Source: Halobacteriovoraceae bacterium | GTDB taxonomy: Bacteria > Bdellovibrionota > Bacteriovoracia > Bacteriovoracales > Bacteriovoracaceae | Length of the DNA stretch: 64,000 nt | Direction: 5' to 3' | NCBI GenBank assembly: GCA_002711995.1 | Contig: PASN01000004.1 | Coordinates: forward strand, 71,674 to 135,673 | In this document: in pieces, positions 39,806 to 45,595 of the stretch | Layout of the letters: every line of letters begins with the position of its first letter | Numbering within the stretch: the first letter of the stretch is position 1 | The notes under the pieces: generated by a model | Seen by the model: only the letters and a program-made list of their open reading frames with translations | Told to the model about the DNA's origin: nothing | Database searches by the model: none | Translations under genes and position numbers: made by a program

Positions 39806-40249
39806 TTATTTTTTGAATTGGTTCCAATTCATAACTTGTTCTTCGATTTTTTGGTGCATTGCCTTGTTGGCCGCTTTCTTGTGCGCCCTTTTGTTTTTTT
39901 CCTTAATCTCTTCAAGTACTTTAACATTCGCGCGGTGAGTTTTAAGGTCATTAAATTTTTCCCTTAACTGCTCGTCGAGCTCTGCTATTTCCGCCTTAAT
40001 AGACGTGATTGCCGCTCTTTTTCCCTGCATGAAGTATGGATAAAACCTTAAGTCCAACCCTGTCGCCCCTGCGTTTGCAGTGGCCTCTTGAGATTCGTAT
40101 GCCTCATCTATTCCGGCGTTTTGGTTTGCGATTTCATTTTCAAGCTCAACTTTTCTAGTCTGAAGACGACCAATCTCCATCTTGCACTGGTCCTCTTTTA
40201 GCTTTCGCATCTTTAAAAGGGCCTCTAATTTGAACTTGTATTTTTTCAT
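39806..40249 (-). CDS. fliJ: Flagellar export chaperone FliJ
   Basis: A 147-residue all-helical coiled-coil protein. It begins MKKYKFKLEALLKMRKLKED, the usual FliJ opening, and ends with a Lys/Gln-rich helix. FliJ forms the stalk of the FliI ATPase ring and helps pass chaperones at the export gate. Its start overlaps the fliI stop by 4 bases, as usual for the pair. Confidence 0.9.
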   Translation of the reverse strand: MKKYKFKLEALLKMRKLKEDQCKMEIGRLQTRKVELENEIANQNAGIDEAYESQEATANAGATGLDLRFYPYFMQGKRAAITSIKAEIAELDEQLREKFNDLKTHRANVKVLEEIKEKNKRAHKKAANKAMHQKIEEQVMNWNQFKK

Positions 40250-41613
40250 CCATTACCTTCCAAAAAGTTTGGATTTACTTCGGTCTCAGCTTTTCTGGCG
40301 ATTTCAACCATACGATCAAAGACATCATCCAATGTGTATGAGTCTTCAACTCTTTGCTTAAGAAGCTCCATCAAGTCTTCGTAAATAGTGATGGCCTTGT
40401 CGACTTTTGGATTTGTGCCTCTGGCGTATGCGCCAACGTTAATGAGGTCTTCAGACTCTTTATATGCGGACATTAGATCTCTTAAATGGCCTGCAACAAT
40501 GGCGTGTTCTCTTGTGGCAACCTTGCTCATTACCCTGGACACAGACTGAAGAACATCGATTGCTGGATAATGGTTTCTTGCGGCAAGCTCACGGCTAAGC
40601 ACAATGTGGCCATCAGCAATTGCACGAACGGCATCCGCGATAGGTTCATCCATATCATCGCCTTCTACTAGAACCGTATAAATGCCAGTAATAGTTCCTG
40701 CATTCTTCTTAGTTCCGGCTCTTTCCATGAGCTTAGGAAGTTTTGCAAAAACACTTGGGCCATATCCCTTTTGCCCAGGGGGCTCACCTGTGGACATTCC
40801 AATCTCTCTGTTTGCCATTGCAAAACGAGTCACGGAGTCCATCATAAAAATTACATCATTGTTTTGATCTCTGAAGTATTCAGCGATTGTTGTGGCAGCA
40901 TAGGCAGCCTTCATTCTAATAAGCGCAGAAGTGTCCGAAGTTGCAACCAAGATAACTGAACGCTTCATTCCCTCTGGGCCTAGATCGGATTCAATAAACT
41001 CTAAAACCTCTCTGCCCCTCTCTCCAATAAGAGCGATTACGTTAACGTCAGCATTTGTGTTTCTTGCTAGCATTCCCATCAGAGTGGACTTACCAACACC
41101 AGAACCGGCCATTACAGCAAGTCTTTGGCCTTTACCGGCGGTGATAAAAGAATTAACGGCATTGATGCCGGTATCTAGATTTTGTCTAATAGGTGGCCTA
41201 TGCATCGGGTTGATGGGCTCGCCAAAGATTGAGCGACTCTCTCCCATCCCTTCAATTGGACCCTTGCCATCTATAGGATTGCCTTGAAAATCAACTATTC
41301 TTCCTAGAAGGCCATCGCCCACTTTGATGGTAGTGGTAAGTTCACGCAAATAAACTTTGGTTTGGGAATTGATGCCCACAAGTTCCTTATAAGGCATAAC
41401 CTTACACTTTTCACCATCAATGCCCACAACCTCACCAAGGCAGCGCTCGCCTGTTTGAGTTACAAACTCTACAGAGCACCCCATCACCGCGCGTGGAAGT
41501 GTGGCCTCATAAATCATGCCATGGCTGGAAAGAATTTTTCCAATATTCTGATAAGGCGAATTCGCCTCAAATTCTTTATAGATTGGTCGAAAATTCAATG
41601 AAGTGCTACTCAT
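40246..41613 (-). CDS. fliI: Flagellum-specific export ATPase FliI
   Basis: A 455-residue hexameric ATPase of the flagellar type III export apparatus. Walker A is at VMAGSGVGKSTLMGMLARN, Walker B at DVIFMMDSVTRFAMANREIG, and GEPPGQKGYGPSVFAKLPKL is the F1-beta-like loop. The N-terminal beta domain and the C-terminal helical part are complete. It overlaps fliH by 8 bases and fliJ by 4, giving the conserved fliH-fliI-fliJ order. Confidence 0.97.
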   Translation of the reverse strand: MSSTSLNFRPIYKEFEANSPYQNIGKILSSHGMIYEATLPRAVMGCSVEFVTQTGERCLGEVVGIDGEKCKVMPYKELVGINSQTKVYLRELTTTIKVGDGLLGRIVDFQGNPIDGKGPIEGMGESRSIFGEPINPMHRPPIRQNLDTGINAVNSFITAGKGQRLAVMAGSGVGKSTLMGMLARNTNADVNVIALIGERGREVLEFIESDLGPEGMKRSVILVATSDTSALIRMKAAYAATTIAEYFRDQNNDVIFMMDSVTRFAMANREIGMSTGEPPGQKGYGPSVFAKLPKLMERAGTKKNAGTITGIYTVLVEGDDMDEPIADAVRAIADGHIVLSRELAARNHYPAIDVLQSVSRVMSKVATREHAIVAGHLRDLMSAYKESEDLINVGAYARGTNPKVDKAITIYEDLMELLKQRVEDSYTLDDVFDRMVEIARKAETEVNPNFLEGNG

Positions 41614-43488: not shown

Positions 43489-44568
43489 TTAAGCTATTTC
43501 TTTTGTTGATTCTTGAGAGTGAATCATTTCATGAACAACTTGCGCGGCCTTGGCCGGGTTCTGCTCAACAAGGTTTATAATTCTCTCTCTAATCATATTT
43601 CCTTCAATTTTTTCAGGATTCATCTTGTCTTCAATGGTTGGAAGAGCGTCTTCCAATCCAGGAAGCTTTTGATTGGCCTGAATCTTCTCTAGCTCTTCAA
43701 TTGTCTTAGGCAAGAAGTCTTCAATCGACTCAACAGTGTTCTCTGTAACCCATTGGATAAACGGTCTTACAACAATGAAGAATAGCAGTGTGATCAAGAT
43801 CCCGATCATTAAGTACTTGGTAAGGTTCTTAATGATCTCTCTGTTTTCACGCTGTCTTAGAAGAGCTTCCGCCTCAGAAAGGTCTTCTTTTGCAAATTCC
43901 ATATTTTTAATAACAAGCTTGTCGCCTCTTGCTTCATCTATTCCAATGGCACTGGCAACAATGGCCTTAAAGTTTGAGATCTCGGCCTCAGACCATGGCT
44001 CATATTTTGTTACAGGAAGCCCCTCATCATTTAGAAGAACCTCTCCATTCTCATCCATTACTGGAACTCTTTTACCGTCAACCATTACCGCAACGGACAC
44101 GGCCTTTACTTCAGCTGTAGGTTTCTTTGATTGAGTTACAGTCTTTGGAACATTGTAGTTCTTTGTAACGAGGCTCTTATCCACATCGTTTCTAGTCTCT
44201 GGAATACCTGGCTGAGGGTTTTCTCCAGGTAGGTTGCTTCGAGCACCTGGGATTCCTTGAGGAGAAGGTCTTCTACCCTGAAGTTTTTGGCTATTGGCCA
44301 CCTCAGACACTACAGCTGTATTTTCACCGTCATAGGCGGTTCTTGTTTCAAAAGACTCTGTGAAGTCCATTTTAACGTTTACCTTGGCAATAACTTTGCC
44401 CTCGCCCACTACTCTTTTAAGTATTTCTTCAATTTGTGATTCGTATTTAGTGTTTACCTTGCTTTCTAGAGCTAGTCTATTAGCAGTGTGCTGCGCCATT
44501 GCGTCACCCACATTCTCAGTAAGCTTCGCCCCTTTGGCATCAATGATAACAACATCCTTTACGCGCAT
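43489..44568 (-). CDS. fliF: FliF C-terminal part, after an in-frame TGA
   Basis: A 359-residue frame encoding the rest of the MS-ring protein: the remainder of RBM2 (VKDVVIIDAKGAKL), RBM3 with the variable loop, the second membrane helix (YLMIGILITLLFFIVVRPFI) and the cytoplasmic FliG-binding tail (NLVEQNPAKAAQVVHEMIHS). It is in the same frame as the N-terminal part. Only 12 codons, including the TGA, separate the N-terminal frame from this Met. There is no proper ribosome binding site (only GGA touching the ATG), so re-initiation would be weak. See the findings for interpretation. Confidence 0.9.
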   Translation of the reverse strand: MRVKDVVIIDAKGAKLTENVGDAMAQHTANRLALESKVNTKYESQIEEILKRVVGEGKVIAKVNVKMDFTESFETRTAYDGENTAVVSEVANSQKLQGRRPSPQGIPGARSNLPGENPQPGIPETRNDVDKSLVTKNYNVPKTVTQSKKPTAEVKAVSVAVMVDGKRVPVMDENGEVLLNDEGLPVTKYEPWSEAEISNFKAIVASAIGIDEARGDKLVIKNMEFAKEDLSEAEALLRQRENREIIKNLTKYLMIGILITLLFFIVVRPFIQWVTENTVESIEDFLPKTIEELEKIQANQKLPGLEDALPTIEDKMNPEKIEGNMIRERIINLVEQNPAKAAQVVHEMIHSQESTKEIA

Positions 44569-44601
44569 TCCATCAACTGACGCGGCGATTAGATGCTGAA
44601 T

Positions 44602-45177
44602 TCATTTAATTTCTTCTTTGGTTAGAGTAAGTCCTCTTGCCACATCTAAAACAACCGATGCTCCTGGTGGCTTCTTCTCAGAAACAAATGGACTTGATTC
44701 AGGAAGGGAAAGGTGAACTCTTGCTCTTTCAACGCCGCGAATATGCTTGATCGTCTTCATGAGCTCGCCCTCTAATGCCCTTTGCTTGTTAATTTTTTGA
44801 ACAAAGCTAGTGGTTCCAAAAGCTTGCTTGTCAAAAACTTCATATCCAATGGTAGAGCTGAAATCCACGCCTTTCTTTGCGATCTCAAGTCTCCAGATGT
44901 CAACTTGATCCTCAGGCACATAGATACTCTTTCCATCATCGGCCACTTGGTAGTTAATTTTACCAGCTTCCAACAATTGAGAGATTGTTGCGGCATCTTC
45001 CTTGGAAAGGTCTGTGTACAAAAGCTTGTACTGAGTTTTTGCCGCCCAGATAATTACACCAGTCATGGCAATGACAATCATGGCGCCAATCGCCACTAAA
45101 CCAACCCTTCTATTGGCGTCCAGTGACTTGAAAAACTCCACAAAGTTTTGAGTAATTTGCTTTAAAAAGTCTTGCAA
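44602..45177 (-). CDS. fliF: FliF N-terminal part, ended by an in-frame TGA
   Basis: A 191-residue frame with the first membrane helix (VGLVAIGAMIVIAMTGVIIW), RBM1 (LYTDLSKEDAATISQLLEAG) and most of RBM2 (VERARVHLSLPESSPFVSEK, then PPGASVVLDVARGLTLTKEE). It begins with TTG at 45177, supported by AGGAGG 6 bases upstream. Codon 192 is TGA. The text either side reads straight on in one frame (LTKEEIK, stop, IQHLIAASVDG), matching uninterrupted FliF proteins. Restored length would be about 562 residues, normal for FliF. Confidence 0.92.
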   Translation of the reverse strand: MQDFLKQITQNFVEFFKSLDANRRVGLVAIGAMIVIAMTGVIIWAAKTQYKLLYTDLSKEDAATISQLLEAGKINYQVADDGKSIYVPEDQVDIWRLEIAKKGVDFSSTIGYEVFDKQAFGTTSFVQKINKQRALEGELMKTIKHIRGVERARVHLSLPESSPFVSEKKPPGASVVLDVARGLTLTKEEIK

Positions 45178-45235
45178 AGAATCCTCCTGATTCTATAAAG
45201 CTTTGTTAACGTCCATCCTAGACATTAAAGATCAT

Positions 45236-45595
45236 CTATACCTGCATTCTCATTATTTCTTGATACGCTCCGATAACCTTGGATCGTATCTGATTCATTG
45301 TCTTAAAAGCGATATCCGCTTTTTCAACGGCCAAAAGGGTTTCGTGCAAGTTCTGGCTCTCGCCACTTGCCAACTTTTGCACTGCCAAGTCCGCATCCTG
45401 TTGCATTTTGTTCACGTTTGAAAGTGAATCAAGCAACATGTCGCCAAATGTTTTGGTACTTTTCTCACCAGCTGAAACACTTTCCAGATCTTTGGTGAAG
45501 TCCATCTTCTTGCCAAACTCAACGCTTTTAGACCAGTTGGAGACGTCATAGTTTTTCAAAGTGTTCTGCATTTGACTAAATGTCTGTATCGACAT
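45236..45595 (-). CDS. fliE: Flagellar hook-basal body adaptor FliE
   Basis: A 119-residue protein that joins the MS ring to the proximal rod. The family C-terminal helix is clear: FGDMLLDSLSNVNKMQQDAD, LASGESQNLHETLLAVEKAD and NQIRSKVIGAYQEIMRMQV. The variable N-terminal 40 residues are not diagnostic. The order flgB-flgC-fliE-fliF is the standard one for this part of a flagellar cluster. Confidence 0.95.
   Translation of the reverse strand: MSIQTFSQMQNTLKNYDVSNWSKSVEFGKKMDFTKDLESVSAGEKSTKTFGDMLLDSLSNVNKMQQDADLAVQKLASGESQNLHETLLAVEKADIAFKTMNQIRSKVIGAYQEIMRMQV

Follow-up and report, generated by a model that had tools for sequence, protein, structure and literature searches.

An in-frame TGA in fliF of a Halobacteriovoraceae bacterium assembly is probably a consensus error

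Organization of the fliF locus

The window, i.e. the whole stretch of 64,000 nucleotides that was analysed, contains a flagellar operon on its minus strand, in which the recorded fliF gene is broken by a stop codon. The features at the locus are:

40246..41613, minus strand: fliI (export ATPase), intact, matching PF00006 and PF18269
42437..43471, minus strand: fliG, intact, with FliG_N, FliG_M and FliG_C domains
43489..45177, minus strand: fliF (MS-ring protein), TTG start at 45177, one internal TGA, TIGR00206 match
43489..44568, minus strand: downstream ORF of 359 aa, ATG at 44568
44602..44604, minus strand: in-frame TGA, at a column that is Gly (GGN) in 38 of 38 relatives; its G>T signature also occurs elsewhere in the assembly
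45178..45193, minus strand: Shine-Dalgarno region of fliF, TCAGGAGGATTCT ahead of the TTG
45236..45595, minus strand: fliE, intact, matching PF02049
45609..46049, minus strand: flgC-like rod gene, intact, matching PF06429 and PF00460
46059..46466, minus strand: flgB-like rod gene, intact, matching PF00460

The minus-strand frame from 45177 to 43489 contains a single internal TGA (44604-44602), followed by the segment IQHLIAASVDG and then by Met 44568. This segment is normal FliF sequence and a frameshift is absent, in agreement with the first-pass annotation, which had described two ORFs lying in the same frame and separated by the TGA. With the TGA translated as X, the gene gives a full-length match to the equivalog profile TIGR00206 (318 bits against a cut-off of 129.75, E-value 1e-94), extending over residues 8-559 and profile positions 3-553 of 555. 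The PF01514 match covers residues 51-225 and thus includes the stop, at residue 197, which aligns with residue ~193 of Salmonella FliF (6scn). From established domain boundaries we take this residue to lie in RBM2, the domain to which the break had been assigned earlier. The full-length match and the high identity to relatives are those of a FliF protein (TIGR00206, PF01514 and PF08345), and the gene order follows the known arrangement flgB-flgC-fliE-fliF-fliG-fliH-fliI. Unlike other FliF genes, however, the recorded gene lacks an uninterrupted reading frame, owing to a TGA in RBM2 which is found in none of the relatives. The arrangement of the two ORFs is far beyond chance; the doubt concerns the truth of the base. 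No second FliF that could compensate for the break is present in the genome, in which a single FliF was found.

The TTG start of fliF at 45177 is preceded by a strong Shine-Dalgarno site, AGGAGG, with a duplex energy of -11.2 kcal/mol. At ATG 44568 the duplex reaches -3.1 kcal/mol, compared to -5 to -7 kcal/mol at neighbouring genes, and a Shine-Dalgarno sequence is essentially absent, as had been noted before for this Met. The ORF at 43489..44568 is not a separate gene, and a usable ribosome-binding site is absent.

The domain matches of the flagellar neighbours bear out the earlier view that the flanking genes are functional. In an alignment of 11 operon genes (3,387 aligned columns) the fliF stop is the sole private change of this genome at otherwise invariant columns, and neither these genes nor the domains of the flanking genes reveal decay of the operon or a second decayed flagellar gene. 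Because the stop is the only such change, it stands alone, and gene and operon appear from the alignment to be under no relaxed selection.

The stop position in related genomes

Comparison with relatives, which the first-pass annotation had proposed as a check, yields a uniform picture. In a search of genome contigs, all 38 relatives that cover the stop column encode Gly, using GGT, GGG, GGA or GGC. A family search of 59 related genomes gave a FliF match in 49, and none of these matches contains a stop. The nearest relative has GGT at this column, not GGA. The most parsimonious change would be GGA to TGA, a single G>T substitution. Of the two misread codons proposed earlier as a sequencing error, GGA is therefore favoured, while CGA drops out because the conserved residue is Gly.

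In-frame stops elsewhere in the assembly

Stretches totalling 797 kb (21.5% of the 3.7 Mb genome) were scanned for in-frame stops that are flanked by coding-like sequence and lack a usable downstream start. Twenty candidates were compared with Pfam, with X at the stop, and ten of these also with NCBIfam. In at least 10 genes of the 797 kb, an in-frame stop falls within the span of one family domain or full-length model:

fliF: TGA
acyl-CoA carboxyltransferase, L063:16809: TAG
sigma-54 activator, L065:7352: TGA, just ahead of ETGTGK
rpsA, L066:11126: TAA
der, L071:3262: TGA
uvrC, L114:14646: TGA
dnaE, L121:10153: TGA
asd, L123:16195: TAA
HMG-CoA reductase, L124:697: TAG
pilN, L127:14944: TGA

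An in-frame stop is also observed in a large repeat-rich protein (L064:14915); this stop and those in the sigma-54 activator and pilN probably belong to the same class.

The genes der, asd, rpsA and uvrC are each present in single copy. The stop in dnaE sits in the main copy; another dnaE-like gene shares only 33% identity with it. Der and Asd belong to the essential proteins of model bacteria, and the stop in der would truncate the protein inside its first GTPase domain. False G>T bases very probably exist in this assembly, because a living lineage cannot carry stops in der, asd and the like, and most of the stops listed are consensus errors.

When two well-assembled relatives (400 kb of G004 and 200 kb of G013) were scanned in the same way, none of ten tested candidates was a stop spanned by a family match; the further control candidates, judged by eye, were for the most part brief antisense frames or junctions between genes. 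A homology scan of genome samples for stops and frameshifts also returned none, in an overlap of merely 12,486 aligned codons, which is too small to carry weight.

Nine isolated single Ns occur in otherwise continuous sequence (in L058, L062, L063 and L064), which again points to an uncertain consensus. As a guide to the type of error, the ambiguity codes of the first 397 kb comprise these nine single Ns and no two-base codes.

Type of base change

Eight of the ten broken genes were compared with relatives at the stop column. A G>T change at the first codon position explains seven of the eight stops, and all three stop codons arise in this way. In those of the two same-genus genomes that cover the column, the residue is Gly in fliF, der, uvrC and dnaE, and Glu in rpsA, asd and the carboxyltransferase. 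The stop in HMG-CoA reductase needs T>A, with Leu encoded at this column by 15 of 15 relatives. Given the codon usage of this genome, G>T accounts for 22% of the single-base routes to a stop; at equal substitution rates the probability that seven of seven stops arise by G>T is ~3e-5, a value that leaves out the eighth gene, HMG-CoA reductase. In 16 genes, counting only first and second codon positions that are strongly conserved, private changes number 13 in this genome, 7 of them G>T, and 14 in a same-genus relative, 1 of them G>T. This gene set was partly picked for its stops (dnaE, asd and others), and of the 7 only two missense changes outside the stops, rpsA G265C and dnaE A123S, are independent of that choice. 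Extrapolated from the number of stops, and assuming that both strands are equally hit, the error rate is very roughly 160 G>T/C>A per Mb.

Decoding of UGA

UGA is a normal stop in this organism, because in a 397 kb sample TGA terminates 44 of the 299 ORFs that reach 150 aa, the frameshift site of prfB is kept and a UCA anticodon was not found. Both RF1 and RF2 are encoded in the genome. The prfB gene (RF2) contains GGAGGTCGCTTTGAC at L102:880-905, comprising GGAGG, CTT, TGA and C, which is a typical programmed frameshift site of RF2. The autoregulatory frameshift at CTT-TGA-C requires recognition of UGA by RF2. The anticodon was read in 31 of 32 tRNA gene matches, all but the one at C14:265815; these 31 are ordinary, with CCA for Trp, and none is UCA. 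Selenocysteine at the fliF TGA was rejected, since no match in the genome reaches the cut-off for tRNA-Sec.

Origin of the fliF stop

Readthrough of the TGA as Gly or another residue, or recoding of UGA, would provide a full-length FliF, and the fully conserved frame downstream of the TGA agrees with this. A TGA at a Gly column is also reminiscent of bacteria with genetic code 25 (SR1 and Gracilibacteria), in which UGA encodes Gly. Unlike those bacteria, this organism has RF2 with its autoregulatory UGA, a site that makes sense only if UGA terminates, many genes ending in UGA and no detected UCA tRNA, and its other breaks include TAA and TAG at Glu columns. Recoding was rejected on the grounds of stop usage, prfB, tRNAs and the TAA and TAG breaks, and, with the stop never present in relatives, it is very improbable that UGA is recoded or read through here. 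An MS ring assembled from two chains, of which the second would begin at Met 44568, is still harder to credit, although a Met lies 12 codons past the stop, at the head of a long ORF. The Met lacks a ribosome-binding site and is no more than a residue conserved in the family (in the GMR motif), the break cuts inside RBM2, and the gene is not split in any of the 49 relatives that gave a family match; the second chain thus lacks a translation start of its own that relatives would share. The titles and abstract openings of the papers found describe no naturally split FliF. The first-pass annotation had listed both possibilities, which find no support here: the stop is missing from the relatives, none of the anticodons read is UCA, the Met lacks a ribosome-binding site, and the breaks in other genes of the assembly involve all three stop codons; even jointly they are highly improbable.

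The remaining question is whether the base itself is real. A genuine recent nonsense mutation would leave a truncated FliF of 191 residues, and hence neither an MS ring nor a flagellum. One base suffices for such a mutation, fliF is dispensable in culture, and the still conserved downstream sequence would fit a very recent event; a mutator lineage biased towards G>T would even produce the same spectrum. However, der, asd, rpsA and dnaE of this assembly hold stops of the same kind, with which a lineage could not live, and among the flagellar genes examined no other shows decay, which makes a genuine mutation improbable. It is also unlikely that the fliF stop is real and the others are errors, in which case the flagellum would just have been lost, or a little full-length FliF would be made via a leaky UGA. 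With a probability of about 0.88, the comparisons described above favour a consensus error, in which a conserved Gly codon would have its G reported as T. Changes of the same type occur across the assembly, in essential genes as well, and are absent from the ten candidates in 600 kb of comparable well-assembled relatives. The shared signature and the lack of decay around fliF suggest that the fliF base belongs to the same error class. Several observations fit a consensus error less well: a living cell can do without fliF, though not without der or asd; a synonymous difference is needed in addition, given the GGT of the nearest relative; one of the eight checked stops, in HMG-CoA reductase, is T>A; and the estimated error rate is high for an assembly of 23 contigs.

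A G>T artefact would turn the GGA of fliF into TGA in the assembled consensus. The source may be a low-depth consensus combined with oxidative damage of the 8-oxoguanine type, or a similar G>T artefact; low depth would let artefacts of oxidised guanine pass. The diagnostic sign of 8-oxoguanine damage is strand asymmetry at the level of the reads. Oxidised guanine that arises outside the cell is described as a cause of G>T artefacts (PMC12390751), and artefacts of this class, such as those from library preparation, resemble the present case in the G>T change, the spread over unrelated genes and the occurrence of biologically impossible stops.

Implications

The TGA break in fliF is probably not a real feature, and the fliF of the organism is most likely ordinary and full-length. 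The earlier description of fliF as interrupted within an otherwise intact flagellar operon fits the record, but probably does not apply to the organism. As biology, the fliF stop most likely has no importance. The completeness figure of the assembly (96%) does not expose its false stops, and with many of these present, claims of pseudogenes, split genes, recoding or lost functions in this assembly need read-level proof.
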